This document shows positions 25,649 through 52,874 of a stretch of DNA of 64,000 nt, piece after piece. The DNA comes from Branchiostoma floridae (lineage: Eukaryota > Chordata > Leptocardii > Amphioxiformes > Branchiostomatidae), in the NCBI RefSeq assembly GCF_000003815.2, contig NC_049995.1, forward strand, positions 2,020,296-2,084,295, written 5' to 3'. Position 1 is the stretch's first letter. The number at the start of each line of letters is the position of its first letter. The position numbers were made by a program, and so were the translations under genes. Under the pieces are notes generated by a model. It was given only the letters and a program-made list of their open reading frames with translations. It made no database searches and was not told the DNA's origin.

Positions 25649-25899
25649 ACCAGTACCTCTTCCAGTGGGAGCATCTACTAAAAGTAGGGGTGGTCTGATT
25701 TATTAGATAAAGTTATTAGTACTTTGTCTTTGCACTTTGATATAATATGATGCTAGTATAGAGTGAATTATTACCATATAAAATGATGCTAGTATAGAGT
25801 GAATTATTACCATATAAAATTATATATATAATCAAATATTTGTTAAATTGTTGACTATAGTCACAAAATATGAAAAAGCCCCCCTTTGGAATGGCCAAG

Positions 25900-26725: not shown

Positions 26726-29700
26726 ATGTCGGATGTGGAAGAGGACATTGATCCCAACGGAAATTTTGCATACGATGCAGCAGTATGTTATGAGGATGAC
26801 AATGACAATGAAGAAGAGACAGAAACTCAAGGCGTCATTGACAAACTAGAACAGGATGACTGGGGATTCCTGGTCTATGACTCTCACAGGGATGGGGAGG
26901 GATCACAAGTGAAACGACTCGAGAAGTCTGTAGATGACTGTCGCCATCTAATCGTCTTCCTTTCACTCAAATTGCTTGAGGCTATCAAGAGGAACGAAGA
27001 AGCTCCCGCAGTAACCAACTTCGAAACATTCCTATGCAACATCTTGCATAACCGAGACACTCGACTGAAAAGAAAGTTGATTGTCGTAAGGTTGGGAACG
27101 GAATGTCAAGACTGCAACATCCCCACCATCTTGAAAAATTGCAGGATCTTGAACATCAGAGAGAAAGGATTCTACAGGCAGCTTTACAAAGCTGTAAGCA
27201 AACTGCCAGGTATCAAAGTCTAAATATTATTATTGTTGGGAGGGCCAACTGTTCTCTCTTTGCAACCACCACTTGGTGAGAAGTTAATACTATTGAAGGC
27301 TAAACCGGAAGGGTCTTGAACTTTGTTAGGATCAAAAAAGGTGTTCTGATTTAATGATAGCATGAGAAGTGGATGGTATCTGCCACCAGACCAGAGTAGA
27401 CAGGGTGTTTCACAGCACAGTGTAGGCTATTCTTTCAGTCATACATTTTACAAGCTGAATGGTAAAATGACAGACAAACAAAGAAAAGTCTTGACTGAGA
27501 CAGATAACACAAGTCTAGAGTAATTTTTAAAGACATTATACTCATTCCTGTACTAGACTATCGTCCAAACATGTCAATAGGAATATCATGAGGTATAATC
27601 TTTTCAGGTGCACAGACCATAGAAGAAATCCAAATTCGGAAGAAGGTTGACCAGATGGCCAGGGGAGGATGCTGCACTGAAGCCGTCCTCATGAAAGTAG
27701 CCAAAGAGCTAGGGATACCAGGAGATGTGTTATGCAGCATCAAGCAAGAATATGGGGGATATAGAGCTCAGCTGATGGAGGTAAGATGAAATACTGTAAA
27801 TGCAGAAATGTTTGCGGTAGTTATATGTTTGCAGTTTTTGCAGAGGCCACTTCGCCGCGAACTTTAAACCACCGCGAACATTTTTCCATTCTATTATCAT
27901 GACATTGCAGTCTATGGCACTACCACGAACTTAAAACTACCGCGAACACTCAATTTTCCCACTAGCGCAAAAGTAAATCCCAGCAAACTTAAATGCATTA
28001 CAGTAAAGCATTTTCCACATAATGGTGTCAGGTTTCCAATACCTTTACACTTCTCTTTGAATACACATAATTAATTCAACTGGTTAACGTATGATTAATG
28101 GTATCATATTGATCACATTAACCCATTCAGGTGCTGGTGGTTTGGCGAGTCCACCATGGCCCTGAGGCAACCCTGGCCATTGCAGATGATGCCATTAGGA
28201 AGGCCACCAACACAACACCTCAGCAAGTGGAGGCTGGTCCGCAAAGCCTGGGTAAGGGGAATTTATCATGAACTAGATTCTTTGCAGTTTAGCCCATTTC
28301 CACGAGATTGACTGATGACCACCATACTTTGTTAGTGTAAAGAAGAGAAATACATATCCTTCTGAAGGATGTCTTGAATGCCTTGATATGACGAAGGCTG
28401 TTTCTTCGTATCTGAAGATCAATGGTAGGCAGACAAGGTTGAATAGACAACCAGTCTGCCTGGCCTGCATGTGACTTTTTAAGGTGAAGGAGGGGTATGC
28501 ACTCCCTTCTCCACCCTCTCGTCTACTGGAGCACTAAGTCCTACAGGGACAAAACTGTTTGCCACGTAAGACGGCCCCAGCAGATGTAGGTTTATTATTT
28601 GGAGTTTCCGTCTTCTAGGACTTCCGACCAAGGATGTAAGGGGTTCCTCCTACCCCCGATCGTGCAACTCGTGTGTCATGGCGGGTGCGTCTACTACACT
28701 CTGCAGAATTATGACAGTTGGCAATTATCAGTACATCAAATAATTAATTACATAAGCATATCTTGACTGCATATCAAAGAAACAGAAAAGAAGAGAGGAT
28801 AATCATGATTTAGGAAGGGCAAGAGGAGTTCAATTTGTAATTTGGAGCACAGTAGTAGAAGATGTAGCAGCATGGAAAAGGAATTACATTTTTTGACACC
28901 ACTTATCCCATTGCACCATAATCACTATCCACATGTGCAGCACTAGAAACAGCTACCTCCCAACAACAGTAAGTGCCTGGAATAAGTTACCATCACACAT
29001 TGATACAGCTCCAACACTTGCTAGTTTCAAGTTGGGGTTGGTCCAACACATGGGCCACCCCAACTCCCAGATGTAATTCGGGATTTCCTGCGGCCATGTA
29101 CATAGTCACACACAAGTCTCTTTTTTTGGTTTCTTTTTGGTTCCTGCACCTTGCACTTTATTTTTTCCTCACGCCACCGGCTGCACGGACCTGCACCTCA
29201 CCTGGATGTGATGCTCTAATTGAGGGCTTTGTCCAGTACCTTATTGAGATTGAGACATTATATTTTTCTACCCACACACATTTTCTCTATAGTTTTAACA
29301 GTCATTACCCTTGTTTTTTCCAGTTGGGGCAACAGCATCATCGGTGGATTCAGAGGCAGTGCCTCCTGTCATCACCCAACCAAACAGTAAGATTATTTTG
29401 TCTGGTCCACTTCTGTCTGCATCGTATTCTAGAGTTAGCCTGATATTCATTATTCTGTCCTCTCTGTAAATACTAAGATATATATATATGATGTCAAATG
29501 TTGAGACACCCTTTTACTTCATTCTTATTTGTTAAGTCAACGTGTTGATTATCAGAAGGGGTGAACTTCAATATTGAGCCATTGTGACCCCTTCCCTACT
29601 GACATCTCCATGATGTAACCATGTATGGTTCTCCTGTCGATTCGACAGATGAGGAGGCAGACAGGCATTTACCTGTTTTGCCTGACCTGCACATGACTTT

Positions 29701-31224
29701 TTATGGTGAAGGAGGGGTGTGCAATTCCTTCTCCACCCTCTTGTCTACTGGAGCACTAAGTCTCACAGGGACAGAACTGTATGACACGTGTGAGACGGCT
29801 TCAGCAGATGCAGCTTTGTCATTCGGAGTATCCATCTCCTAGGAGGACTTCCGACTAAGGATGTAAGGGGTTCCTCCTACCCCCGACCGCGCGACTCGTG
29901 TGTCATGCCCGAACATGCCCCTAAGCCTGGCTCGGCCACAAAGCCCCGCCAAGGCCACTAGCCGCAGCTAGATACTCATTTACACCTGAGTTAAGTGTAA
30001 CCATTTAGCCCATGGATGAACCCCTAGTAGGAAAGTTGGACTGAGTCATGTATTCACCCTTGTAATGTATAGATTCATGAAAGGTAGTGACTATATCTCT
30101 TTGTATCTAGGTGCATTCTTTTCAGGATCTGATGTTGATGGGGCTACAAATCGTATGGAAAACCTGAACATGGCCACGCCACCTCCGACTGATGACACAG
30201 TAGATGGTAAGGGTCAAAGGTCATCACATATGCTAAACTTAAGGTTGTGATGACTGATAAACATGATGACAGAAATCATGAGCTCCTTTTGGACTGATTT
30301 CAATAATGACAGAGACCTGGGCCCCTACTGGTATACTACAGTACTTTTCCTTTATTCAAATCAGTCTCCTGCCTTGTAGGGAAATGGCCACAAATTCTGT
30401 GGGGAGGACTCAATAGAGCCCTAGACAGTGAGATTTTGTGTTTCACAAAGTACACTGATTCTATATTGTTTACAATGGAATCAGTTGTACACTGCACCTT
30501 GGAAGCAATATAACAAGACTACTTTTTCTAACTACCTTGTCCATGGTACTGAAATATAGGTTATGATGGAGAGGTATCAGGAGTAGACAGACAAGTTTTG
30601 GTAATGTGAGCAGGAAATCTTCTGTCTGTAATCTCTTTAATTGATGAATTGATTTTTTCCTTGTAGAAACACTACCATCTGTGCCAACACATGCTATCGA
30701 TGAGAAAAAAAGTCAGTTCAATGAAATTTTCCTATTTTACTTAGAGTTAGTAGGAAGTCTTGGATAACTTTTCAACTAGTATTAATTTTGTTCTTTAACA
30801 TAGAAAAACATACACCTGCCAATATCCAAAGTCTCTCAGCCATTCCATAGGAGTAATAATAACTGGAGACAGTCATACTTTTTGCTGCAGTGTTTCTTTG
30901 TGGCCAGAAGTAGTTGCTGGTATTAATTCATAAAATGATCATTCCTTGCTGTTATTATCATGTATCTTTTCCATTTATCCCTTATCTAAAACAGAATGAA
31001 AGAGAACCAGGTCGAGGATACTTTAAAAAAATCCTCCAAGATCCATAGTCATGAAACTACAGTACTCCTTTTAACAAATTTCTTTGACATATCTGAGGAG
31101 AATTAATGTTGCCTTAACTTTATAACAGTTTCCTATTTGTATCTTACAGACTATTTTGTTTCATCCTTTTTCAGAGAAAACAAGTAAGAAGGACAGGGGT
31201 CAACCACTTACAACTGAAGTCTAG
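26726..31224 (+). CDS. TIR plus death-domain protein, gene B (RHIM-less paralogue)
   Basis: CDS exons: 26726-27209, 27608-27780, 28131-28251, 29324-29386, 30126-30206, 30667-30711 and 31175-31224. All junctions are phase-consistent and give 338 residues. Residues about 14-160 form a degenerate TIR domain: box 1 FAYDAAVCYED, box 2 region SHRDGEGSQ, then CRHLIVFLS. Residues about 161-258 form a death domain over two exons (ELGIPGDVLCSIKQEYGG, then VVWRVHHGPEATLA). The tail is short, acidic then lysine-rich (EKKKKTSKKDRGQ). Exon order, sizes of the death-domain exons (173/121 against 170/121) and phases match gene C, so they are paralogues. B lacks the repeat exons and the RHIM exon. The start follows an acceptor, so exon 1 is non-coding. 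TIR adaptor activity is inferred. Confidence 0.92.
27794..28003. mobile_element. MITE with CTGTAAATGCAGAAA-type ends and TA target
   Basis: Flanked by TA on both sides (27792-27793 and 28004-28005). Left end CTGTAAATGCAGAAATGTTT and right end AAACTTAAATGCATTACAG are inverted. The interior repeats ACCGCGAAC words. A homologous copy lies at 44764-44939. It is in the intron splitting the death domain of gene B. Confidence 0.75.
28460..28690. repeat. Dispersed repeat, copy 1 (pair with 29680-29960)
   Basis: About 230 bases, from the CCTGCATGTGACTTTTTA region to CCCGATCGTGCAACTCGTGT, are 80-90% alike by eye to 29685-29910. The family is not identified. A retroelement tail is possible. Both copies lie in introns of gene B. 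Confidence 0.6.
28935..29265 (+). mobile_element. LINE 3'-end fragment (CR1/Jockey-like)
   Basis: A short reading frame ends RNSYLPTTVSAWNKLPSHID, then TAPTLASFKLGL and stop at about 29073. This pattern (tyrosine-leucine-proline, WN.LP, FK) is typical of the last residues of CR1/Jockey-group reverse transcriptase proteins. The remaining 190 bases look like the 3' UTR. It is heavily 5'-truncated and lies in an intron of gene B. Confidence 0.7.
29680..29960. repeat. Dispersed repeat, copy 2
   Basis: This copy is homologous to 28460-28690 and extends further right through CCTGGCTCGGCCACAAAGCC and CGCAGCTAGATACTC. It creates an open frame at 29621-29842 that I regard as fortuitous. It lies between coding exons 4 and 5 of gene B. 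Confidence 0.6.
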
Positions 31225-33612: not shown

Positions 33613-35575
33613 TCACATTACAGCTTCGAAAGCTAGCGCCTGTGTCTTACTGGGTTGAACAGGGTCCATTTGTAACGTTTGTCTACAGAAATCATGCATG
33701 GCGTCTTCTAATTCAAACTGCGAAACGAAAACACTTGTGCAGATGGCGTCACCGTGATAGGTTCGACTTGCGTCTTTCAGATGCGTCAGTAGGTGTTTTA
33801 AAACGGTGGCCAAATCCTTTGCATAGATTTGGACGCACAGCATTCTCGCTGAAGGTGAAAGGTAAGTATTGGAGATACTCAAGCTTACTTCGCCTTCGTG
33901 TTTCAATACGTAAATCTTGTTTTGTGCTTGTAGATACTTTAAGTTAGCCGGAGATAGCGTGAACGGGTCCCAGTCTACAAGTATGACGGGTTTGCCGTCG
34001 TGAGTACCGCAAGCTCCCGCGGGAAGCCATTTCTGTACAGCCGTACAGAAGTCGTCGTCTGCGTCCTGTAGAGGCACGACGTCCGGTAAGCCGGTCGTGT
34101 CCAGTTGAGCCAGCTGAGCGGGGTCCTGTCGCCACCACAGGTTGGGTTCGCTCTGGTATTCTATGAAGGGCTGCCAGAAACGTCGCATGTTACTTTTGTA
34201 CGTTAGATTAGTTACTGTTCTGCTATTTAAGTTGCAATTGCATTATTTCAGGCTACAGACATTTTCATTTCCAAAACGAGTTGTGGAGCTACATTTCGGG
34301 CAAGGCCACAGGCTGCATCCATTTGGAAATTTCACTTTAATTCATATCTATCCATTCATCTTAAAAACAGTTGGGTTGTCACCTTCAGTCGCGTCACTGG
34401 TTTTCAAGGGAGCCCAACACGAGTCGCTGCTGTCTTCCCAAACAACACGTGCCTATGTGGTTTAGAAGTCTTACAGGCAAAACTTCAGAAAATCTGAGGC
34501 ATCCGAAAGTACGTAGGAAATCGTAATCCAAATTCTTCTGAGTACAGAAGATACTCTGGACCTAGAATTGGTTTGGATCAGCCTGTTATCCAGTCGTATT
34601 ATATAGCTCCCGAGTCTCTTCTGTCCTCTCTCCAAAATACGTATTTGCGGAGAGGACAGAAGAGACTCGGGAGCTATACTCTAGTAATACGGCCGGATGC
34701 CAGGCTTAAGGTTTGGATACCAGACTAAGGCGATTATTATGTACTCACCATACTAAAAATATATCGCATCTTTTTCTTCATGGATTCTGTTACGCCTTGG
34801 GACAGGGAAAACGCCGTGGATCGCTTGTACTTGACCGTGGGACGATTCTGACGCATCCACTGGTCCTGATGAAGGGACAACCGTCTGTCGATTCCCTGCC
34901 CCCTCCAGTCAGGAGCGATCCTAGCGGCTTTGACGATAAATGCAGTTCCACTCTCTGTAATCTTGGATGCCCGCAACCCCACCTGTAATGCAAAGGAATT
35001 CGAGATGTAGAAACAGCAAGACGACAAACAACATGTACACATTCGACATTTTCACCATTCCATCTCCAAGCAGATGTTGGGGTAAAAGATTGTCAATAAT
35101 CGTCGTTTCGACTTTGAGTAGATTTTACTGTTACAGATCTTGAAAACATCGCCTCCGCAAAAACGGTTATCATTTGTTGTTAAAAACAGTGTATTTAGAG
35201 ATATCACGTCGATGGACAGCGGGTCTAAACTGGAATATTTTGAATATATTGCAGTTTGGAAACATGGTCCGTCGAATTAATATACCTTGATACCCTTTTG
35301 AAAGACATCGGATATAGGTCACAGAACAAGCGTTTAATACTTGGAGATGTAAAGTTTCTCACCACTTGGTCACTGACCAACGCCAGGAACACAATGACGT
35401 CAGGGTCGTCTATGAAGGAGTGAAAGAACGCCGGGAGGTAGTCTTTGCCCTCGTAGATGCCTTCAGACATTCTCATGACGCTGTCATAGTCGCCGTGACA
35501 GGCCATACGGAACGTGAGAGCTAGATCCGCGCCACTGGTGGTGTTGTCTGCACCACTGGTGTTTTTGTCCGCCAT
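33613..35575 (-). CDS. NAT16: GNAT N-acetyltransferase, NAT16 / histidine N-acetyltransferase-like, copy 1
   Basis: Exons on the minus strand: 35575-35363 (71 codons), 34982-34749 (78 codons) and 34170-33613 (185 codons plus stop). All introns are phase 0 and the product is 334 residues. GNAT features are FRMACHGDYDSVMRMSEGIY, then DYLPAFFHSF. The acetyl-CoA loop region is APDWRGQGIDRRL (R/Q..G.G pattern). Vertebrate NAT16 and fish histidine N-acetyltransferase share the IY.G.DYLP and RVAP..RG.G signatures as I recall. The C-terminal half (NLWWRQDPAQLA) is typical of this small family. The substrate is not known from sequence. Confidence 0.88.
34602..34678. mobile_element. Near-perfect hairpin element (29-bp arms) in NAT16-like intron
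   Basis: TATAGCTCCCGAGTCTCTTC with its continuation to 34630 is perfectly complementary to 34650-34678. The loop contains the 12-base palindrome AAATACGTATTT. Weaker pairing extends out to about 34594 and 34691. Perfect arms imply a recent insertion or selection on the hairpin. It lies in intron 2 of copy 1 and is absent from copy 2. Confidence 0.7.
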
Positions 35576-36400: not shown

Positions 36401-37930
36401 GTAGGGATGGTGAAAAGCAGATATTATGTACTTTGTAGAATCGTGATTTGTAATTCTTTGTTGTTGTGTCGCAAGGTTCCCTTCACTTCATAACAAGGCT
36501 ATAATGTATTTTGTCTGAGGAGAGCGTCTCCGTGGCCAGATGTGTATTACTGTCTGCTATTGTTGTGTGATAACTGTTGACAAGGTGTTATCCTTTGTAT
36601 TGTTCTTTGATGAACTGAAGATGAAAAGAACAACAAAGCCAATAGCAGGTACATGTTATAATTAGTGCCATGCATATAGCTGTAGACAGTGGATATGTGT
36701 CTGGGATTTTGAAATAAAGAGCAGTGAGTTGTTGAGTTGGGAAACAGTTGGACAGAGGCTTCGGTCAGAGAAGGAAGCAGAGAGAGGGTCCGAACTCACA
36801 GCTCCCGTGCGTGTCAATGGCATAATGCGTAATTTACCTGTGTCTTGTGCGTGTTTTAGTCCTGTAGTTTAAACGTCCCTCGTGCAGCATTCTAAAAGAA
36901 CCTGGGGCCCAGAACACCGACCCCCACTTCTTACATTTAATAAGAGGTGTTGTGCATTATTAAGGGTCTTTTGAGTGTACAAAATTCTTCATGATTGTCT
37001 TTATTGCATATTCATGAACTTTAAACATAAATCAGTGAAATTTAAAATTATAAAAAAAGGAGTGTTTGATAACAAAATTCCGTAATCTCAAAGCAAATTT
37101 AAGGTTCTGGCTCAGTACCATCTAGTTTTAATCAATTTGTGTTTTTATAAGCTTTAGTAGGCTTTTTTGTAGTACAACTTTGTACTGTTCTAACAAAAAC
37201 ATGCGTAACACACTGCGGATAATCTAATCTTAACAGCTGCTGAGACAAGTAGTCATCATTCGTTTCCTATTGAGGCACACCGTTTGGTAAGACTATGACA
37301 TGTCCAGTTGAGGTTTTTAGGTTTCACATCACAGATTCGAAAGCTAGCGTCTGTGTCTTGCTGGGATGAATAGGGTCCATTTGTAACGTGTGTCTACAGA
37401 AGTCATGGATGGGGTCTTCTAACTCAAACTGCGAAACGAACACACCCATACAGATGGCGTCACTGTTGTAGATTTGACTTGCTTCCTTCAAGTGCGTCAG
37501 TAGGTGTTTTAAAACGGTGGCCAAATCCTTTGCGTAGATTTGGACGCACAGCATTCTCGCTGAAGGTGAAAGGTAAGTATTGGAGATACTCAAGCTTACT
37601 TCACCTTCGTGTTTCAATACGTAAATCTTGTTTTGTGCTTGTAGATACTTTAAGTTAGCCGGACATAGTGTGTACGGGTCCCAGTCTACAAGTATGACGG
37701 GTTTGCCGTCGTGAGTACCGCAAGCTCCCGCGGGAAGCCATTTCTGTACAGCCGTACAGAAGTCGTCGTCTGCGTCCTGTAGAGGCACGACGTCCGGTAA
37801 GCCGGTCGTGTCTAGTTGAGCCAGCTGAGCGGGGTCCTGTCGCCACCACAGGTTGGGTCCACCTTGGTGCAGTATGAAGGGCTGATGGAAAATCACATGT
37901 TTGCTACATTTGTTACTGTTCTTCTGCTTA

Positions 37931-38097
37931 ATCTCCAAGCAGATCCAGTGGTAGCATAAGATAGCATCAAAAGCTGGCAGAGGAAGCCGGCCTAGAAGAG
38001 TTTATGCGACCGGTGCCCGTTTGACTCCCTTTGGCCGGCTATACTCCTTTGCCAGCTTTGATACTATCTCACGGCACCGTAGGATCTGCTTGGAGAT
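37931..38097. mobile_element. MITE with ATCTCCAAGCAGATCC ends in NAT16-like copy 2 intron
   Basis: The ends ATCTCCAAGCAGATCCAGTG and CCGTAGGATCTGCTTGGAGAT are inverted. TA precedes the left end; the right target copy has decayed. The internal GCATAAGATAGCATCAAAAG opposes CTTTGATACTATCTCACG. It is absent from copy 1. Confidence 0.8.
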
Positions 38098-40819: not shown

Positions 40820-43800
40820 ATGATGGGAGACAACGGCCCATCCAACCAAAACTCTACTTTCATCTACGACACTGCTGTGTATTACGATGAATCTGACCAA
40901 AGAAGGGAGGACATACAAAAGTATAGAGACAAACTCGAACATAACAAATGGGGGTTTTCAGTATGCGACCCATACCGAGACGGGCACGGAGAACGGATGA
41001 AACGGTTCAAGCAGTCGTTTATAGACAGCCGCCACGCCATAGTGTTTCTCTCACCAGACGTACTGGAACGAATGAACAAAAACCTTGAAGACGCCGTAGA
41101 ATTTAAGATGGGTACGTTTTTGTCTGGGATTCTGGAAAGCCACGACCTGAAGCTGAAGAGAAGACTCATTCCCATTGTGTTTGAAAGTGACGACAGGAAT
41201 TTCCAGAAACCTTTTCTTCTGAGCGACTTCAGTATTCTGTGTCCAGGGAAGAAAGGGTTTTACAGACACCTGTACAGATCACTGAGCAAGCTGTCGGGTA
41301 ACTTTTTTTTATCTTTTTTAATGGAGTTAGAAGAGCCTTTTAGTCTTGGGTCAAAAATGTAATTCAATATTATATACTTTCTTAGTACCAATTTTTAGAT
41401 GTCATAGCTGCAAGAAAATGGTGTTCCCTCCTTGTTAGCTAGTAAGTGTTTCAATATTATTGGTTCACGGATTTTTTCCTAAAAAGTATGGAGCGAGAGG
41501 GCAAAATAAAAATAAAAATAAAAATTGTAAAATGGTTGGGGTAAAGGTAAGGGTTAATCCAAAACATAAAGAATAAAAAGTTTTCAGCTCGAAAAAAGTA
41601 CAAAACACTATTACTGTACAGTAACTGCACCTGTTTGTTCAAAATTATAAATTTTAAAGTAGTGTCAGTTTTTATGTTTGTCCCATTCTTCATCATAGTT
41701 CATGAATGAAAAATATGACTGCAATAATAATACCCACATTTTAAGGAGCTTATAATATAAAGGCCAATTTGCTACACCAGAAAGTTGGTGAATGGTTTCA
41801 TTTATGGTGAAAATTTGCTGAGTGGTGATTTTTATTTTTTCCCCAAAAAATTGGAGCGAGCGAATCCGTGAACCAAGAAATTAAATTGGTGTGGCCTTAA
41901 GAACAAATATTTATATTGTTATTGCAACATTTATTCTTAAAACTTTAGGCCCTGACACCATCACGCAGAGGCAGATCCGACAGAAGGTTGATGCGATGGG
42001 CAGAGACAGATACACAGACAGAGTTGTTACTGGGGTGGCACATGGACTTGAGATACCAGAAGAAGTCCTGGAAGACATCCTACAGGAATATGGAGGACAC
42101 AAGGCCATGCTGATAGAGGTACATCTTCTGGATTAACATGCTTTTTTACGTGATGACAATAAACCAAAAACAGTTGGAACTTAGGCTCTATAACATAGAT
42201 TGTAGCCTGCATTCTGTCCTACATCCTTGCCTTTACTAGTACTTTGTTCATTTTGTAAAAAAGGGAAAGGTTTTTTTCTGATGTTTTGAACTTGTGATTG
42301 AAACAATGCTGTTCATACAATGAAAACTTGTGTACAACCTGTCATGATTTCACCAGTGAAGTTGCCAAAAGATTTATGGTACACACCTCTGACTATTTGC
42401 AGACTGTGGAGTGTTGGAGGTTACGCCATGGGCCTGATGCGACTGCCACTATTTTGGACCGTGTCCTGGAAAGATGTACCACTACACCTCAACAAGTAGC
42501 TGACCTACCACCACAGAGCCTTGGTGAGGAATTTATTACCTCCTGTGTGTGTGTGCATGTTTGCGTGCGTGTGTGAATGCATGTGTGTGTGTCTGTGTGT
42601 CTGTATGTGTGTATGTGTGTATTTCAGTAAATTCCTCTCTTCCCTAGAACTTGGTCATGGAACCCCCATGACATTATGTTTTGCATTAAGTCGCTGTCAA
42701 TCGTGAAATCTCCCGCCGTTTTTCAAAGCCTTGTTTTACAAAGACGGGCATGATTAACAAATGTACTGTCTCAACCTAAGTGTAAAATGACTCTTTGTAA
42801 ATGCATGTCATGTTTTCAGTGAGGACACATATCACTGAGGAACCCTCTTCTATGATTCCCATTCAGCGACAGACAACCACCAGTGGTAAGTTTTGTTTTG
42901 CTGCATCTTACTGCTAGACGCACAATTATAATTTATATACATTTTTTATATTGAAATGTATTTAAATTAATGTTATAAAAGAGAGAGTCAATTCAGCAAA
43001 GCTGGTGTCATTTTTTATTAATTTGTTCCATTGAACTTATTGAATCTTGTGCAATAGAGCAATACTGTGTTGGCTGGGCCTCATCATTGAACAAATGGAA
43101 AAGCTAAAGACCTCCTAAGGTGGTACTAAACAGGTGCCGAACAGGAAAAAGGAAGAGACAAGAAAGCTGAGAGAGACCTTCTCGAGATGGGCTGAGAGGA
43201 CAACATCGAGCAACAAACAACAAGCACTGATGATGATGGTGATAATAAACTGTAAAAAAAATAATGTGATAAAGTAGTCTTGCATCGGATATTTGTTACT
43301 TTGGTGCTCGGTATTCACTGTGAATTTACATTTTTTTTGTAGAAGTTCAAGGAGCTGCACATGAACTTGATGCAGCTCTGAACATTGATGTGGAAAACCT
43401 GACAGTTCACTCAGGAGAAGCCCAACTGCATGGACTGGAAGTTTCCTCAGAATCAGGTCAGTTTAAGCTTTGTAGTTGTCTTCTTACAGTAACACAGAAA
43501 TCAAATTGTGCCAAGAGGATTTGAAGAGTTCAGATTTTGTGTCTACTTTTCTTATCTGTGATATACTTTAACTTGTGCTTCTAAATTAGTCCTATCATGG
43601 TGAAGAAAAAAGAATAATATGTGGCAATAGCAAGTTAATATCATGATAATTCCTTTTGCTATGTATTTAGTCCTTTATAAGTTTTGCCAAGAAGGTTATA
43701 TTTTATGTGTTTCTGTGTTTTTATGTGGGTAGCATAACTCAATGTGTCCTTATGATTATAGTGATATTTGGTACGTGGGTAGTAGATACATACAAAATAG

Positions 43801-46800
43801 AATTGAGCAAAATTATTGGGTTCCCAATTGAAAGCAGCTTTCATATATCAATGGTACTACAGCAAAACTCCTCCTACATTTATTACTTTGTTAATTTGTT
43901 TGTAGAACCTGCTAACGATGCAGCTGAAGCACCTGGCACTGATGGAGAAGAGCAGACAGAAGGAGCACAACCTCCCCCAGAACCTGGTTAGTTTGAACGC
44001 TATCAGTCTTGTTACATGATTATTGATTTAAAAAAAAAAAATTAATACAGTCTGAGATAGCAGCTAAACCTTTAAAGTCGAGTTTTACAAAAATGGACAA
44101 TGTCATGATTAACAAAATGTATCATGTTTTCAGGGAGGACACATGTCATAAACTCCTCCTATGTGTTTGAGTAGTAGAGTAGAGTAGAGTAGAGTTCTTC
44201 AGGTGCAGCTAGGAACATCTGTGTGAACGTATGTGTTCATGTGTTTGTAGAACCTGCTGATGATACAGCTGAAGCTCCTGGCACTGATGGAGAACAGCAG
44301 ACAGGTGCTACAGAAGGAAGCCAACCTCCCCCAGAACCTGGTTGGTTTGAACACTATCATTTTCATTATAATATTGATTAAAAAAGAAAATGAATACAGC
44401 CTGAGATAAGCAGCTATCCCTTTAAAGTGAAATTTTACAAAAATGGACAGTGTCATGATTAACAGAATGTATCATGTTTTCAGTCAGGACACATGTCACT
44501 GAGGAACCCTCTCCCATCACTCCCAAACTCCTCCTATGTGTATGAGTAGTAAGAGTAGAGTTCTTCAGGCGCAGCTAGGAACGTGTGTGTTTGTGTTTGT
44601 AGAACTCGCTAATGATACAGCTGAAGCTCCTGGCACTGATGGAGAACAGCAGACAGGTGCTACAGAAGGGGCCCAACATTCCCCAGAACCTGGTTAGTTT
44701 GAACACTATTATTTGATTATTGATTATTGATATTGAAAAAGAAAATGAATACAGCTTGAGATACTGTTAATGCATTTAAGTTTGTGGGGATTGAATTTGA
44801 CTGTTCGTGGTAGTTTTAAGATTGCTTTTAGCACCAAGCACTGTAGTCTCTAACTGCCATGGAAAAATAGTTGCGGTGAATTAGCAACGTGAAAACCGCA
44901 AACATAAAACCTGGTCTGATTTAGTTTCTGCATTTACAGTAGTAGCTAACCCTTTAAAGTTAGGAAGTTTGGTTATACAGTCAAACCTGTCCTGAGCAAT
45001 CACTCACGGGACCGAGCAAAAATGGTTGCTGAGGATAGGTGGTTGCTTGGCGAACAAAAATAATAAATGATACGGTTTGCATTTATTTATTTATGCATGA
45101 TATACACCTTCAGTTAGTTCTCAGGAAACATATCTACAAGAGACGCACAGTTTTCAATCCCCATGCTGTTATGTAAACAAATTTCAATAAACCATTGTTT
45201 AACAATCAGAGCTGAGTTTGTCTAACAATTAAACATGGTTTGTTTTGTAGTTGTCTGTTTTTCTGAACAGCCCAAACAAGTGCTTTGAATTTCTCTACCA
45301 GTATGTCAAAATTCTCACTGATAATCATTTTGCACGGTGCACATTGTCAATATGCTTGACTGATATTCCCTTACATAAAGAGAAGAAGTCTCTAAGTCCA
45401 GGGTAACTGTGCCTTCATAATTCTTCATATAAAATGGCTGCTAGCTGCTGTCAGTCAATTTTGGTTGGTATGGTTTTTTTTGGTATGGCAAATTTCTAAA
45501 TTAAGGTTTTGATACTTTCTCATTGATATTACCAATTTTATAAAGTCATGGGTAACAAATCTAATTTATGATGCAGCGGCAACACCAATGCACCTCAGCT
45601 ACCGTGAAAATGCAGCCATTGATGTAGAAGGTGGCAACAGTACAGATGAACCTCCAGAGAGATGTAGCCAAGTAAATGTAGAAGTTAAAAACAGTGCAGT
45701 CAATCATCCAGACACCGGCAAAGAAAAACTGTCAAATGGTGCAGCAGGATCTCAGCTAGTTCCTTTGGAGAAAGGTTAGTTCAATTATCAAATTGATATC
45801 AAACTTTATGTTTTTATTTGCATTCTTATCTTTTTTTAGCCAGAGTGTCGTCATGCAAAAAGTTATGCAAAAAATTAATAAATTTCCTTTCATTCTCTTT
45901 GTGGTGGTTCAGACATTGATGCAAAATGAATATGCTGAATGATTTTTGATATTTGTGGGACTAGTGGGTACTTAATTGAATGCTGTGAAGTAAGATGAAT
46001 TATTTTTTTTACTCCTTCACCCCTATGGTATATCAATATTAATAAGGTAATGATGTCATTGTTACGACCTTGGTGTTACGAGTCACGTGATGCCCCTTGC
46101 TCTCTTAACACCATGATGGCTGTGTTGTAAGCATTATGTGATTAAATCCCTCTTTGAATCAAGGTGCATCTTCGCCTTTGATTAACTCACTTCGCATCCT
46201 CTGGTCGACGTTGCTGTTTGTCTATCTATAGCCTGGCATAGTAGCAAATTTTTGAAGCATAGTTTGAATACTCTAGATCTACCTCTAAACTATTTGCCTT
46301 GTTGATGTAGAAGGTGACAACAGTGCAGCCAAACCTCCAGACACCAGCGAAGAAAAACTGTCAACTGGTGCACAAGGAACTCAGCTAGTTTCTTTGGAAC
46401 AAGGTTAGTTCAAATGTATTATACATTAATTTTGCTTTTATTGGCATTTCTGTCTTTTTTAGTCTGCGATCATGAATTGCTACCAATTGATTTCTTTTTC
46501 TTTTAAGTGGCTAGATATTGAAACATGATATGTTATACCTTGATAATTCCTAGAGGGTCTAAATTTGACTTATGAATCAGTTTGCTTGAAGGGACATAAA
46601 TCTATTAAAAGCCAATTTTAGTAAAGCTTTCTTTCAAACTGAAGAGTGGTTGCATTTGAATTGATAATATGTAACTATGCTCTTGGGGACAGTATGTTGC
46701 TTTTGAATACATTGTAGTTAAATTCACATTCTTTGGGTGCTGTTAACAGATATTTTCAGCCTCATGTTGGCTCTGCTGCTTTTAGCATTCACCATGAATG

Positions 46801-49800
46801 GACAGAATGGTTGAGAAGTACTGACACGTCTAGTCTTCTCTTACGTAACATTTAAGCTGTATAGCTATCATTGTATTACTAAGAAAATCAGAATCATGAT
46901 GATTTAGACACTGTTTGTTACCCATAAAACTGGTCATGACCAAGTGTGAAAGCTGCACCATTATCTGTTGGATTAGGGTGGCAATTTGAAGATTGACGAC
47001 TGTCTATATTATCTTAACATTTGGATATCAGAAGAGCACATGGCATACATGCTACAAAAAGTTAATTTTGTCACTGAGGTATAGGAAAGTCAGTGTTTGA
47101 ACAAAAAGGTTGTCCAATTTTCTTGGGCAACCAAATATTGTTGAACCATGTGTCATTAAGACTGTACAAGTGAAGTCAAGAGGACAAGCACAGGCTACGT
47201 AGATCCAGTCCACAACATAAACATGGCTGAAAAGTTTTCAAACTTGACAGGGACGCAGAACGTCACAGTGGTGAACTACCACATCAAGAACATCTACATC
47301 ACAAACAGCGACATGGTTCAGGTCGGTGACTGTAATGCCATACAGATGTCACAGACGGAGGTTGGGGAAGATAATCTAGAGGAAGAGGAGGAGGATGCAT
47401 CTGGTGTGGAAGTACCAACACGAACAGCCCACAGCCAGCTGGGTACAGCTGCAGGCACGAACACTGATGAGAACACTGACAGACATGATGACTCGCACCT
47501 GGAGGAAGAAGACTGTAAGAAATGGAGTTAACGACTTGTGACGGTCGAGCCACACAAATTTGATTTTTAATGGATGACATCCTCTGCATGGAGACAAAAC
47601 TTTATGAGGAAAATTTCCATCAATTGTTTGGGATTGGACTTTTGCATGATACGTCAGGCTAATTTACGATGGTTCCATGATCATGATCATGTTCCCGCAG
47701 TTGCAGTTTTGTCATTTGTAGACGCTGCTACATTTTCATAGGCTTGTTGTAACAATCAAAGCAAGATTTCCCTCAGAAAAAAAAACTTTTAGGCAGAAAT
47801 CATCCAGAAGTCTAATTTGTATGGCATAAATTTTAGATTACATGTGAAATAACTTTCTTGTGGTGAATATGATTTTTAATATGCATCTTGTGGCAAAATA
47901 GCATGGAATGGATGATAGTTTATAGCTGCTCCATTCACTTGGATGGCACTTAAGGCTATCAAATAGGAGCAAGCAAGGTTAATCTTGAATGTGATTCTTA
48001 GGAGTTCATTAGCTTTGCACTTCTAGTGTTTATTGCTGCAGAAATTGTTTTGCAACTTTTCATTTTGTTGGGGAGTCTGAAAGAATGATTGATGTCTGTC
48101 ATTGCCTCTGGTAAAATGCTGTCTTGTGCAGCAAGAATTGTGGCATTGTTTTATCTGCTCTTGGCACTCACTGTTAAACAGCTGCTGTTTCAGCTCAATA
48201 AACAGCTATTCTCAGTAATCATTATCTTCTATGGCAGCTCTTGAAATTCCAAGTTGGAAAACTTTTAGATTTGTCAGAAAGTGCCGAAATGGACACATTG
48301 TGACTAATTCTTTAATTGGCACATGTGGCTATTATCAATAAAGTTTCAAATTGGAAATCTGGTCACTCTCTTGTACACTGAGTCCAGAAATTTAAAACCC
48401 TAATCATAGATATCTGATTTTGATACATCCCTACCATAACCAACATTTGTTTGCTGTGTCTACAGGAAAACCTATAGTTGATTTTACTTTACATTTTACT
48501 TGTAGATGCTGCTGCAGCACCACTTCAACAAGATGGACCCCCAGATCCAAGTGAAGTTGAATCTGGTGCAGGTATATTCTTATAACTTAAAAGTTGCTCC
48601 AATAGATTGCAAAGTTGTAATATCTATAACAGTTTAACCCTCAAACCACCGTATGGGGTCAAAACTGACCCCAGGCGTATATCAATGTGTGCCATTATGT
48701 CATTTCTGGTTGAAAACAAATTTCCTTCCAGGAGTTTGTTTGTATATATGTCCTATAACTTCTTATACGTTTTTACCGAGATTGGCTAATTATTGATTAA
48801 GTTATCCTCGAAAGTTTATGCATAGTCCAGTGGGGTCAAAATTGACCCCAGCATTTTTTTAAACAAACTTTTGTTACCCACACCTAAACTACTTATTGTA
48901 GGAGCACGAAATTTTCAGAGAATGATGTACATGTAAGCCAAAATTATTATACTAACTTTCGTGCCATTATAATGTTATATGATGACATTATGACGTCATC
49001 TAGGTAATATCGGCCGCCATCTTGGATTTTGACTGATGANNNNNNNNNNNNNNNNNNNNNNNNNNNNNNNNNNNNNNNNNNNNNNNNNNNNNNNNNNNNN
49101 NNNNNNNNNNNNNNNNNNNNNNNNNNNNNNNNNNNNNNNTGAGCCACCTCGTAATCTTGAATTTATAAGATGTGATAAACAACTGTTATTTGCCAAGAAA
49201 ACCTTAAAACTAAAATGTTTAATACAAAATTAGAAAATTTCGTAATAAATATGTCTGTCAGAAAAACGTTGCCATGGCAACATGAAAAATGATGAACATA
49301 CTTTGTTCACTGAAAATGTTTGCTATCAACATTTTCTAAAAAGTTACCAAGTTTGGTGGCCCTAGCATAAGCCATTCAGGCGCAATAAGGCATTGAAGTT
49401 GGTACAGGCATCAAAAACCTCCTTCCTGGTCTGAATAGCGTTGGTGCAAAATGTGGTCCACATGATCTTTTGCATAAATTATGATAATGAGCTAGAAGTA
49501 TTCTCACCTAATCATGTCAGACTGTCCCACATAGATTAACGAAACTATACATATATACAAATCACAAAAAGAGTCACACAAAAAAACTGTATTTGTACAA
49601 AACGTTTTGGGGTCAGTTTTGACCCCATACGGTAATCTACGTCACAAAAAAGCTACGGTGGTTTGAGGGTTAATATGCAATGTAATCTGTCTACTAGTAG
49701 GTCAAAGTGAGAATTTGTGTAATAATTTTGATTTGTTTTCAAATTGTTGATGTCCTCAGATTCTGAATTCTCATTATTCTTGATCCATATTTTAGAACCT

Positions 49801-52800
49801 GAAGATATCACAGCTGAAAAACGTCCAGCAGTGTCTTCTACCATCGAGGAAGAGACACTATCTGATGGTCTGGAAGAAGAAGTATCTCCTAGAGATGGTG
49901 CACAGGGTGAGTTTATTGGTGCCAGTGTTGACTGCTAAAGCCATTTGATTACAGATAATCTGAAGAGCAGTTTCATGTAGCGTCACTGCTGTCCACTGCA
50001 ATGTTAGGGCTGTCAGGGTTGTCTTCCGTCATTGTTTTGGAGCCCATGTTGTTGATTTTCCTGGCTAAATATGTCATTTTAAGCTTATGAAAGTACATTT
50101 TCATGTCATTTTTGGGATGGATGGGGTAAAATTATTTCCATCCCAACAAGAAAATTTCCATCCCTGAACAAAAGGATGGAGACAGTGCTGGTTGGTGTCC
50201 CTATTTGCATATTAGTGAATCATAGCTTCAGTGTTTTCGTAACCACTAGGAAATGTGTGTAGTATACAGTTTAAAGAAGACAATACCAGAGGAAAAGTCT
50301 TAACTTAGTTTAGAAGATGCTTGAGCAAGCGTGAGAATCCTGTGTACAGTTCAGCAGTACAATCCGTTATTTTGATTACTATACAATTGTACGTAATGGC
50401 TATAGAGTGAGACAAGTTAGTGACTTTTTTGATGATGGCAATTGGATTATGCATACAAGATCTGAAATTCATGACTACAACACTTTTTATTGCAGGCACT
50501 CAAGACGACCAGAGTGAACGAAAACCTATCACTACTGACCCTGATGTACAGGCAATTTCACAAGGAGTGGAGATGCTGAAGTTGGACAGTTCCTCATCAG
50601 TGGAAACTGGTCAGGGTGGTGAGTTACAGTGCACTAGTTTAGTACCTAAAAACTAATTTCAATCTATTACCTTTGCCACAAAGACTATTTGCCACAAAGA
50701 CAAAGGTGGCGCATGTGTGTGTATGTGTGTGTGTGTTTGTGCTTTGTGTGTGTCGTTGGACAACATAACTTGAGAAGCTGAGGACAGATCCTTATTTGGA
50801 AGGTGGATAAAGGGGTTTGGAGTAAAACTTCTTCATGTCTTTTTCTCATATCGTGTAAATTTCTAGTTTATTTCTCTTTTCTTTAGTTACAGATTTTGCT
50901 TAATTAAATCATAATGGACATGTAAGTGAAATATATACCTGGTAGCCCCATTTCAAAGTATTTGGGTGTAAATGTGTCTATAAGACTTACATGATAGAAC
51001 TTCATCTTAAAGTTTGCTTTTAACTCATTAATAATATTTCTTACAGATCCAGTAAAGAAGAAAGGTTTACTGCCCAGGTTGTTTCGTAGCCAGAGCGCCA
51101 GTGATAAGACAGCTTCATCAGGTATCTTAACACTATGCTATGGGGCAGTAAATAATAAATCAATGTATTCTAGCACGCTTGTACAGTAACCTTAAATGGT
51201 TACCAGATCGTTGTACAATTGTATTTCTCAATGTATTGTGTAATTGCAAAGTGCAAATTTGTTTGAGCATGCTCTTATGGTTGATGAAAATGACTTATGT
51301 TTCCTGTGATGCAAGCATGTTTTTGTGATCACATTTCATAAAAGAATTAAAGCACAATATCCATGCAGTTTACTGCCAAATTAACATTATTTACTAGGAA
51401 GATTGCTCTGTATCAATTATCATTTTATTGTGCCATCCATAATGTACAAGCCTAGGGATTGATTTTTCTGCACATGTAATGCTCTAACACGAGAGACCAA
51501 TTAATTTGTTTGTTGTTGTTTTTTGTTTTCAGAGAAGAAAGAAAAGAAACAAAGTTTCATTGCGGACATCAAAAAGAGATTAACACCTCAAAAGCAGTCT
51601 CGTAAGTGTTTTATGATGTAATTGTTTTAAGATCATCTTATTTCGAATTCATCTCAAAAATAAGGCTTAGCATATTCATGTACTGTAATTACAATTTGAG
51701 AAGTACTTATTCTATATAGCATACACAAAATACACAAATACCCAGTATTTTCAGTGCAGGTTTAGACATGTCTAATTTTGTGCCTGATCGGGCCAGTGCA
51801 AGTTTTCTTTGTTGTCAGGTAGACATCTCAGTTGATTTCAAATTAAATTTTTCAAGCATTATAAGTTATGTAAATTCTTTTTCCCTCTTTCATGTTTTAG
51901 GTTCTGCCAAAAGCTCAGTTCAGAGGTCCACCAGTACTTCCAGTACTGGAGTTAAAAAGGGCGAGTCGTCGATGATGCCCAGAAGCATCAGTTATGAAAG
52001 TGGAAGGTCTGTTGTTGCAGCAGCTGGTGGGAAAATGAATCCTGCTGTACCTGCCAAGCCAACTACAGGCAAATCTGCGAGTGGTATGTACAGTTAAGAT
52101 AATGGCCTCCGCATGGATGTGTGTGTGTGTGTGTTTGTGTGTGTGTGCAGGCATGTGTGTATGCATGTTTGTGAGTGTGTGTATGCATGTTTGTGTAAAC
52201 TATGTAGGCATGTGTTTGTGTGTATGTGTCTGTATGCCATTGTGCGAATGGTGTGTGTATATTTGTCCTATGTGTATTATGTGTATGTACATGTGTGTTT
52301 CTAAATGTTTATGTGTGTGTGAGTATTGTTATATGTATTGTATATTATGCAGGTCTGAATAGTGGCTGTCATATGGTGCGTTGTTGTGTCTGTGTTCGTG
52401 TGTTTTGAAAAATGCAGTCACGTTTATCCTAATGTAAACCAATATTGAGACTGATACACAGCCAGCAAGCATTTCTCAAAAAATCATTGCTTTATTACCA
52501 CCTCAAAGATTTAACGATCACCATACAGTTGTATGACACATTAGGTAGGACTTTGCGTAGTAAAATGTACTCATTATTTTGCTGCCTACAGCGATCAAGG
52601 ATGAAGAAAGACTGGTCAGTGCCTTGCCAAACCCGCCTAGTGACAAGTTGGAGGAGAAAACTGGTAAGTTATTTCATTCATTCATTCATACTTATAATTG
52701 TTACATCCTGTTCCATTTTAAGCTAAAGCCTGGCTCTAAAATCATAAACTTTAATCATATTAAGCATCAAATAGTTGTTTACAGACTCCACCATTGAATG

Positions 52801-52874
52801 TATTGAACTTTCTTTGTGCAGAAAAGAAAAAGCAGAAGAAAACCAAGGCTTCATCACCACTTGCGGCTACCTAA
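40820..52874 (+). CDS. TIR-death domain-repeat-RHIM protein, gene C
   Basis: CDS exons: 40820-41297, 41949-42118, 42403-42523, 42820-42885, 43343-43456, 43906-43986, 44251-44340, 44603-44692, 45577-45774, 46311-46403, 47194-47514, 48506-48571, 49796-49906, 50496-50618, 51047-51121, 51533-51601, 51901-52083, 52592-52663 and 52822-52874. Every junction is phase-consistent; total 857 residues. TIR, about 12-158: box 1 FIYDTAVYYDE, box 2 region PYRDGHGER, then SRHAIVFLS. Death domain, about 160-256: LEIPEEVLEDILQEYGG, then ECWRLRHGPDATATIL. Acidic tandem repeats, about 317-403. RHIM about 535-555, core VQVGDCN. Basic Ser/Lys-rich tail (FIADIKKRLTPQ). All introns after the death domain are phase 1, so exons can be skipped without frameshift. 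A start-stop uORF (ATGTAA, 40811-40816) precedes the ATG. The domain set suggests an adaptor linking TIR and death-domain receptors to RHIM amyloid signalling; this is inferred. Confidence 0.9.
41458..41877. mobile_element. Inverted-repeat element with TTGGTTCACGGATT ends
   Basis: TTGGTTCACGGATTTTTTCC at the left is opposed by AATCCGTGAACCAA at the right, and both ends contain TGGAGCGAG nearby. It is about 420 bp, AT-rich and non-coding. It occupies the intron between the TIR and death-domain exons of gene C. The target duplication is unclear. Confidence 0.65.
42541..42624. repeat. TG-rich microsatellite in gene C intron
   Basis: Interrupted (TG)n with GTGCGTG and TGTATG variants begins within 20 bases of the splice donor at 42523. 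Confidence 0.85.
43906..44692 (+). repeat. Tandem array of three duplicated exons with their introns in gene C
   Basis: Exons 43906-43986, 44251-44340 and 44603-44692 encode near-identical acidic peptides. The shared elements are a start resembling EPANDAAEAPGTDG and an end resembling PPPEP. The introns are also duplicated, sharing GAATACAG.CTGAGATA, TCATGATTAAC and TTCTTCAGGTGCAGCTAGGAA blocks. Relics of the 42820 exon (AGGACACATGTCACTGAGGA) survive inside the array near 44133 and 44485, so the duplicated unit once included that exon. Nearby exon 46311-46403 is likewise a partial copy of 45577-45774. Confidence 0.9.
44764..44939. mobile_element. MITE with CTGTTAATGCATTTA / CTGTAAATGCAGAAA ends and TA target
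   Basis: TA flanks both ends (44762-44763 and 44940-44941). It is homologous to 27794-28003, with AAACCGCAAACATAAAACC against GTTTGCGGTAGTT in the opposite orientation. It lies in a gene C intron. Confidence 0.75.
44974..45053. repeat. Partial copy of the ACAGTCAAAC.TGTCC MITE
   Basis: TACAGTCAAACCTGTCCTGA, then CACTCACGGGACCGAGCAAAAATGG and GGTTGCTTGG resemble the element at 38574-38644, but the right end is missing. Confidence 0.55.
46065..46222. mobile_element. Possible fossil LTR fragment (Gypsy-like), weak
   Basis: The stretch starts TGTTACGACC, contains an ATTAAA signal and a downstream segment (AAGGTGCATCTTCGCC) reminiscent of LTR R-U5 ends. No partner LTR or internal region is seen. 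It would be an old, incomplete solo remnant. The call rests on general resemblance only. Confidence 0.25.
47090..47150 (+). repeat. Fragment of the CAGGGTT / GGGCAAGT transposon family
   Basis: CAGTGTTTGAACAAAAAGGT, then CCAATTTTCTTGGGCAACC aligns well with the left end of the 13988 element. It lies about 45 bases upstream of the RHIM exon acceptor. Confidence 0.55.
47194..47514 (+). other. RHIM-encoding exon of gene C
   Basis: This 321-base phase 1-1 exon encodes NIYITNSDMVQVGDCNAIQM followed by SQT. The core VQVG is at 47316-47327. The RHIM consensus is (I/V)Q(I/V/L)G with a following Asn. The human RIPK3 RHIM, as I recall it, reads NIYN..GVQVGDNNYLTM then QQT, so the match covers both flanks. 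RHIMs form cross-beta amyloid signalling fibrils in RIPK1, RIPK3, TRIF and ZBP1. The rest of the exon is acidic (EEEEED). If the donor at 47514 is not used, translation ends CKKWS at 47531. Confidence 0.82.
48197..48342 (+). terminator. Two AATAAA signals after the RHIM exon (possible short isoform of gene C)
   Basis: AATAAA at 48197-48202 and 48337-48342 lie 0.7-0.8 kb after the in-frame stop that follows the RHIM exon. Cleavage here with intron retention would yield a protein of about 612 residues ending just after the RHIM, like TRIF, whose RHIM is near the C-terminus. Usage is not demonstrated. Confidence 0.4.
48638..49669. mobile_element. piggyBac-like non-autonomous element with TTAA target and GGGGTCAAAA palindromes
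   Basis: TTAA at 48634-48637 and 49670-49673 flank inverted ends CCCTCAAACCACCGTA and TACGGTGGTTTGAGGG. The palindrome GGGGTCAAAACTGACCCC (48655-48672) has relatives at 48832-48849 and 49609-49626. TTAA plus a CCCT start is the piggyBac signature. No transposase is seen, although 100 bases inside are unsequenced. It is inserted in a gene C intron. Confidence 0.85.
49040..49139. other. Assembly gap of 100 N
   Basis: Unknown bases lie inside the piggyBac-like element. A round 100 usually denotes unknown gap size, so the element length is uncertain. Gene C exons are not affected. Confidence 1.
50020..50195 (+). repeat. Dispersed repeat with GGATGGA word
   Basis: It shares CTTATGAAAGTACATTTTCA and GGAGACAGT with 14815-14990. 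Near its right end GGGATGG, GGATGGG, CCATCCC (twice) and GGATGGA alternate in orientation. A possible left end is TGTCAGGGTTGTC near 50015. Boundaries are approximate. Confidence 0.5.
50713..50752. repeat. TG microsatellite
   Basis: Short interrupted (TG)n in the gene C intron after the exon ending at 50618. Confidence 0.8.
52118..52330. repeat. Long degenerate TG-rich repeat
   Basis: About 210 bases of TGTG with TGCATG and TGTATG variants begin 35 bases after the gene C splice donor at 52083. They give spurious cysteine/valine-rich ORFs in all forward frames. Confidence 0.85.

Follow-up and report, generated by a model that had tools for sequence, protein, structure and literature searches.

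Four human proteins carry a RHIM (PMC9444067; this and the other articles cited by accession are represented here by excerpts), and how so few of them became wired to the Toll-like receptor (TLR) and death-receptor pathways is a standing question. This article concerns a 19-exon gene of the amphioxus Branchiostoma floridae, located at 40820..52874 (+) of a 64,000-nucleotide stretch of contig NC_049995.1 (positions 2,020,296 to 2,084,295, called the window below), which encodes a TIR domain and a death domain (DD) and holds a RHIM exon that may or may not be part of the same message. TRIF/TICAM1, the amphioxus TICAM included, unites a TIR and a RHIM in one adaptor, with the RHIM C-terminal of the TIR, but the 19-exon gene has no N-terminal TRIF domain (its TIR begins at about residue 14) and adds a death domain and long acidic exons. 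One survey finds no RHIM in the TICAM of Leptocardii (PMC9440496), and a review describes bbtTICAM as acting through its RHIM (PMC6043800). MyD88 has both a TIR and a death domain, although the TIR precedes the DD at all six places of the family described below, the reverse of the order in MyD88, and the 19-exon gene carries in addition a RHIM exon and a long tail. Finally, RIPK1 of vertebrates and of the lancelet combines a RHIM with a death domain, whereas the amphioxus gene has a TIR, has its DD ahead of its RHIM, and gives no kinase match in its 857-residue product (Pfam, E ≤ 10).

Amphioxus is itself rich in lineage-specific TIR adaptors such as bbtTIRA and bbtTIRC, many of them with partner domains unseen elsewhere: 28 TIR domain combinations have been counted, 20 of which are its own (PMC2575513). 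The combination TIR-DD-RHIM is not seen among these domain-shuffled adaptors in the excerpts of PMC2575513 and PMC6043800, and no TIR-DD-RHIM protein appears in the open-licence literature (titles, abstract openings and passages, among the matches listed, e.g. the best 40 of 893), while PMC7885112 gives no match for RHIM together with amphioxus. Since the TIR, the DD and the RHIM of the 19-exon gene all score below their Pfam cut-offs, surveys based on Pfam could miss the combination. An earlier note on this DNA had seen in the locus an undescribed system. In the light of the 28 combinations, and of a RHIM-less TIR-DD paralogue that the note overlooked in the same window, this is too strong a term, and the locus is a further variant among the domain-shuffled TIR adaptors of amphioxus.

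The 19-exon gene is one of a few TIR-DD adaptor genes that make up a cephalochordate family, found at six places in the genome. When the 513,431,437 bases of the assembly were searched (the window lies there at C17:2020296-2084295), the TIR returned seven matches at E ≤ 1 and the DD exon six, and both were found, TIR then DD, at six places: the 19-exon gene, its paralogue in the window, C17:12.02 Mb, C17:6.98 Mb, C242 and C3. One weak TIR match (E=0.039), the seventh, is accompanied by no DD match. None of the six has a stop inside its TIR match or its first DD-exon match. The tandem paralogue (26726..31224, +, modelled with seven exons) shares the first three exons and their phases with the 19-exon gene, at 42.8% identity over residues 11-288 (E=1e-63), and shows no RHIM in motif and profile scans of the window. 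The copy at C17:12.02 Mb has a TIR 95% identical to that of the window paralogue. Its position, C17:12023500-12033499, is 10 Mb from that paralogue; the distant copy has a stop in its fourth-exon match and a last exon unlike that of the window copy, and may be damaged or otherwise spliced. The C242 copy has about 95% DNA identity to C17:6.98 Mb over the TIR and the first DD exon and is perhaps its haplotig; its second DD exon was not found by a genome search at E ≤ 0.1.

The identity of the two domains in the 19-exon gene comes from these relatives, as its own Pfam scores are below the cut-offs: 14.7 bits against 21.3 for TIR (E=0.027; 15.1 bits for the trimmed domain) and 14.3 bits against 22.6 for Death (E=0.046), with no family matched by the full 857-residue protein at E ≤ 10. 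Among the six family members, searched against Pfam at E ≤ 1, TIR_2 matches four (best E 0.00063) and TIR matches one. All three PDB matches of a TIR profile at E ≤ 10 are TIR constructs of the IL-1-receptor family (E 0.58-0.86). AlphaFold models the TIR poorly (pLDDT 57.5); with the TIR model, Foldseek ranks 1-6 are all MyD88, at low TM-scores (E 0.013-0.072, TM-scores 0.30-0.39), and no match reaches E ≤ 0.001. The Death scan took in five of the six members, all except the C242 copy, and the paralogue (24.3 bits) and the C17:6.98 Mb copy (27.6 bits) pass the cut-off, the C17:12.02 Mb copy (20.0 bits) falls short of it as does the 19-exon gene, and the C3 copy gives no match. NADase activity of TIR domains requires a conserved catalytic glutamate, and a proline in the BB-loop is a usual TIR motif. 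In the alignment of the six family TIRs, in which no known NADase was placed, none of the 24 invariant columns is a glutamate, and the usual BB-loop proline is present in none of the six; the lack of an invariant glutamate makes it more likely that the TIR acts as a scaffold rather than as an NADase.

The 18 introns of the 19-exon gene are all GT-AG, and a frame of 857 residues stays open from the ATG at 40820 to the TAA at 52874; 17 introns are in phase 1, the sole exception being the phase 0 intron between exons 2 and 3, and exon 13 has to end at 49906. The start codon and the TIR (about residues 14-157) lie in exon 1 (40820..41297), and the first and second parts of the DD in exons 2 (41949..42118) and 3 (42403..42523). 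Exons 4 (42820..42885) and 5 (43343..43456) are linkers: the paralogue has an exon at the place corresponding to the former, and the latter is weakly similar to paralogue exon 5 (shuffle p=0.055). Then come three acidic repeat units, exons 6 (43906..43986), 7 (44251..44340) and 8 (44603..44692), which are near-copies of one another, followed by the acidic linker of exon 9 (45577..45774), part of which is duplicated in exon 10 (46311..46403; 80% identity over 161 nucleotides), so that part of the acidic region grew through exon duplication. After the RHIM exon 11, the chain proceeds through the linker exon 12 (48506..48571), the acidic linker exon 13 (49796..49906) and the linker exon 14 (50496..50618) to a basic tail, which begins with exon 15 (51047..51121) and continues in exon 16 (51533..51601), the Ser-rich exon 17 (51901..52083), exon 18 (52592..52663) and exon 19 (52822..52874), the last with a Lys-rich end and the stop codon. 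All are on the + strand. Because intron 12 contains a 100-N assembly gap (49040..49139), part of the chain may be missing. The exon count, the absence of a phase conflict and the order TIR, DD, acidic repeats, RHIM, basic tail had been claimed before, and the GT-AG introns and the open frame bear them out, apart from the splicing of exon 11 into the TIR-DD message.

Exon 11 was drawn by the earlier note at 47194..47514, and its RHIM looks genuine as judged from motif, profile and composition. The block of 24 residues occupies 47277..47348, with its VQVG core at 47316-47327. The RHIM pattern [IV]Q[ILV]GxxNx[MLI], taken from PMC9440496, is matched once in the protein, by VQVGDCNAI at residue 542, where composition alone predicts 0.0002 matches. 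Pfam RHIM gives the exon 11 peptide 15.3 bits against a cut-off of 20 (E=0.014). A second profile was built from six RHIMs of the same genome, two each from three loci at C135 about 205.7 kb (L030), C148 about 162.9 kb (L031) and C11 about 2.6 Mb (L032); one of the six came through a motif scan, and a third core-like RHIM place in L032 was left out. It scores the exon 11 block at 23.4 bits, where the runner-up in the window reaches 9.0 and the best of 20 shuffles 17.1, although the six were chosen partly by their shared core motif, which favours such a match. With their own locus left out of the profile, the known RHIMs score 8.6-33.6 bits, a range that includes exon 11. Compared pairwise with each of the six, the exon 11 RHIM exceeds nearly all shuffles (from 0 of 3000 to p=0.007), both sides of the comparison being core-picked. 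The composition of exon 11 is coding-like as well, at 0.342 bits per codon where none of up to 3000 intron windows exceeds -0.027; its other two frames, at 0.149 and 0.249, also exceed the introns, and contain 5 and 9 stops. The RHIM profile search put forward with the earlier reading was thus passed in substance, below the cut-off in Pfam and clearly with the own-genome profile, and the label "RIPK3-like" has to be dropped as too specific, the closest RHIMs found being amphioxus ones beside TRADD-like_N exons.

How rare is the motif in this genome? A Pfam RHIM search at E ≤ 10 yields seven matches, two of them over the cut-off and none at exon 11; five are at L030, L031 and L032, and the other two, in short frames of 41 and 36 residues, look like chance. 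Of 14 control genomes searched in the same way, one has a match, below the cut-off. No second copy of exon 11 was found: when the genome was searched with it as protein and as DNA, only the best candidates being scored, nothing but the locus itself came back under the thresholds applied. At L030, L031 and L032 an exon-like open reading frame (ORF) with two RHIMs is followed by a TRADD-like_N ORF (16.7, 12.2 and 21.3 bits, respectively, against a cut-off of 23.7; E 0.0064, 0.17 and 0.00024), and L031 also has a Death-like ORF (17.6 bits against 22.6, E 0.0042). The two kinds of ORF are probably exons of one gene at each locus. These loci resemble the 19-exon gene in that RHIMs stand beside an adaptor domain, and differ from it in having at least two RHIM cores together with TRADD-like_N and, in the ORFs scanned, no TIR.

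Is exon 11 then joined to the TIR-DD message? Because exons 18-19 resemble the last exons of the paralogue (shuffle p=0.0026, in a comparison made after the likeness had been seen and between ends that are both Lys-rich), the RHIM ORF lies, in the same orientation, within the TIR-DD transcription unit, and it is unlikely that so rare an immune motif came to sit there by accident. The favoured explanation is that this member of the TIR-DD family gained a RHIM exon which is spliced into at least some transcripts, to give an adaptor with the layout TIR-DD-acidic linker-RHIM-basic tail; the odds of this are put at about one half. Exon 11 as drawn has 321 nucleotides and is in phase 1 on both sides, which leaves the frame intact whether it is included or skipped. 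Its intact phase was accordingly set aside as evidence for inclusion, such an exon being neutral in this respect.

Several observations weigh against the favoured explanation, and the gravest concern the splice sites. They were scored with a model made from 28 other acceptors of the 19-exon gene, the paralogue and their relatives, which replaced a narrower model of the gene only. With -10.6, the acceptor of exon 11 at 47194 is the worst of 29, the next lowest scoring -1.03; only 4 of its 15 positions are pyrimidines, where all others have at least 8, and it stands at the 12th percentile of the AGs of the window, 88% of which score higher. The best in-frame alternative acceptor, 47251, keeps the RHIM and at 0.44 falls within the low end of the real ones, but 54% of random intron stretches give an acceptor as good, which is chance level. 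The exon 11 donor is the second lowest of 28 (the lowest of 18 in the gene-only model); it reads ACT/gtaaga, like one paralogue donor, ACA/gtaaga, which speaks in its favour, and is outscored by an in-frame GT at 47403, after the RHIM (7.48). An A at -3 and a G at +4 of an ATG favour initiation; both are found at 47223, the earliest ATG in the RHIM ORF, whose start context is therefore strong. Other points on this side come from outside the splice sites. The two other frames of exon 11 stand above the introns, as given above. No RHIM profile match above 13 bits occurs at any of the other five TIR-DD places, the four outside the window being covered by two 10-kb stretches each; this threshold would miss one of the six known RHIMs, and the C3 stretch (L028) includes 318 N. 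A DD profile of two members retrieves no death domain from the PDB, only two unrelated matches (E 0.52 and 1.2). Used as a protein query against the genome at E ≤ 10, the RHIM stretch retrieves nothing but itself, and so no other RHIM. As a separate observation, L028 has a looser RHIM core motif inside its TIR.

Exon 11 may really begin at 47251, or it could serve as an alternative first exon whose ATG lies at 47223. The latter is the heart of the strongest competing account, in which a TIR-DD protein skips exon 11, while a promoter in intron 10 yields a RHIM protein that starts at ATG 47223 and is spliced via 47514 to exons 12-19, TIR-DD and RHIM never meeting on one chain. This would dispose of the failing part, as a first exon needs no acceptor; its ATG is the first in the open frame and lies in the context just described, and skipping of exon 11 preserves the frame of the TIR-DD product. 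On the other hand, reading of the intron 10 sequence, the only way in which a promoter was looked for, gave no evidence of one, internal promoters are, as a rule, less common than cassette exons, and the exon 11 donor, which this scheme still uses, is weak as well. It has perhaps one chance in four, and the single TIR-DD-RHIM protein stays at even odds. Of the earlier claim of one gene joining the three modules, what stands is the coding on one strand within one gene body; the single polypeptide is what the exon 11 acceptor calls into question.

Supposing the RHIM exon to be spliced in, the adaptor would work as follows. The 19-exon gene alone in its family would have gained the exon, beside duplications of its acidic exons. 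In the protein, the TIR would join the TIR assemblies of Toll-like receptors, MyD88 or TICAM and the DD would join death-domain helices; the RHIMs so clustered would then template beta-sheet polymerisation with RIPK1-like proteins or with the RHIM-TRADD_N proteins. An adaptor of this kind may be taken to link RHIM polymers to assemblies of TIRs and DDs, the RHIM being present in some isoforms. Its output would most likely be NF-kB activation or, should the protein behave as a decoy, NF-kB damping; lytic death is a further possibility. The necroptosis-like signalling proposed by the earlier note finds no support in the sequence, which gives no indication of the output. NF-kB activation is described as a function common to RHIM proteins, and the RHIM of TRIF as dispensable for it there (PMC12119088).

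Partners for such a RHIM plausibly exist in the genome, given the RHIM loci beside TRADD-like_N exons and a set of MLKL_N loci. A genome search for MLKL_N at E ≤ 1 gives four places (E 4.7e-16, 2.9e-15, 1.3e-7 and 0.0012), of which C6:11148637, C6:11055401 and C6:11058393 (L051, L052) are well over the Pfam cut-off and C18:2844769, at 26.6 bits, is at its edge; these loci speak for cell death as an output, whereas in B. lanceolatum MLKL is said to be without this N-domain (PMC11507063). Reports on the RHIM of amphioxus conflict: two describe RIPKs without one (PMC9573974, PMC11507063), which also counts against the scheme, and others find it present (PMC12119088, PMC6043800), the lancelet RIPK1 homologues carrying a RHIM tetrad and a DD (PMC12119088). 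Lineage expansions of TRADD-like_N in Branchiostoma have been published, in a survey that does not contain the word RHIM (PMC8195603). TRADD-like_N ORFs also form arrays at C17:18.30-18.90 Mb, on the chromosome of the window, and on C215, among 96 matches genome-wide at E ≤ 1. The wider proposition, that a single adaptor holds three self-assembling innate modules (TIR, DD and RHIM) in a genome that also has RHIM/TRADD-like and MLKL-like N-domains, so that Toll-like and death-receptor adaptors feed RHIM amyloid directly, falls somewhat short of an even chance.

The same protein might have the opposite sign and work mainly as an inhibitor. A precedent from amphioxus is in print: TIRA, which binds both TICAM and RIP1b, damps NF-kB (PMC6043800). 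The lack of the usual BB-loop proline in all six aligned TIRs points the same way. This is the favoured explanation with its sign reversed, so the odds of the two overlap, and it appears rather improbable. A little less probable still is a separate, nested RHIM-only gene in intron 10, encoding 102 residues from the first ATG to a TAA (47223..47531, +) and serving as a RHIM decoy or seed. The ORF does run on past the donor to the TAA at 47529, and AATAAA occurs downstream at 48197 and 48337; however, a plausible donor lies just ahead of the stop, and the RHIMs of L030-L032 are not alone, but beside TRADD-like_N exons. The AATAAA motifs were rejected as a sign of a separate gene, since the + strand of the window has 41 of them, too many for these to be significant. 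Finally, that the RHIM resemblance arose by chance in an acidic linker, the protein being merely a TIR-DD adaptor, is very unlikely: the sub-threshold Pfam score, a phmmer search of the RHIM exon against the PDB with no match at E ≤ 10, the genome protein search that reaches no other RHIM and a pattern expectation of 0.058 across the window's six frames leave room for it, but the own-genome profile score is well over the window background and the shuffles, and the pairwise scores beat nearly all shuffles for all six RHIMs, core-picked as both sides are.

If the favoured explanation of one TIR-DD-RHIM adaptor is true, cephalochordates would feed RHIM amyloid from adaptors besides kinases, and the wiring of the RHIM would have been modular at the base of the chordates. 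With a TIR-DD gene bearing a RHIM exon, three RHIM/TRADD-like_N loci and MLKL_N loci in one genome, this wiring can be tested in an accessible animal.

Two further features were noted in the window. A third TIR ORF lies on the opposite strand beside the TIR-DD paralogue (25106-25699, -), with a TIR_2 score of 34 bits against a cut-off of 28. Between the paralogue and the 19-exon gene, two ORFs on the - strand, 33613-34242 and 37324-38001, match Hisat_C, the C-terminal domain of histidine N-acetyltransferase (E 7.4e-14 and 5.9e-13).

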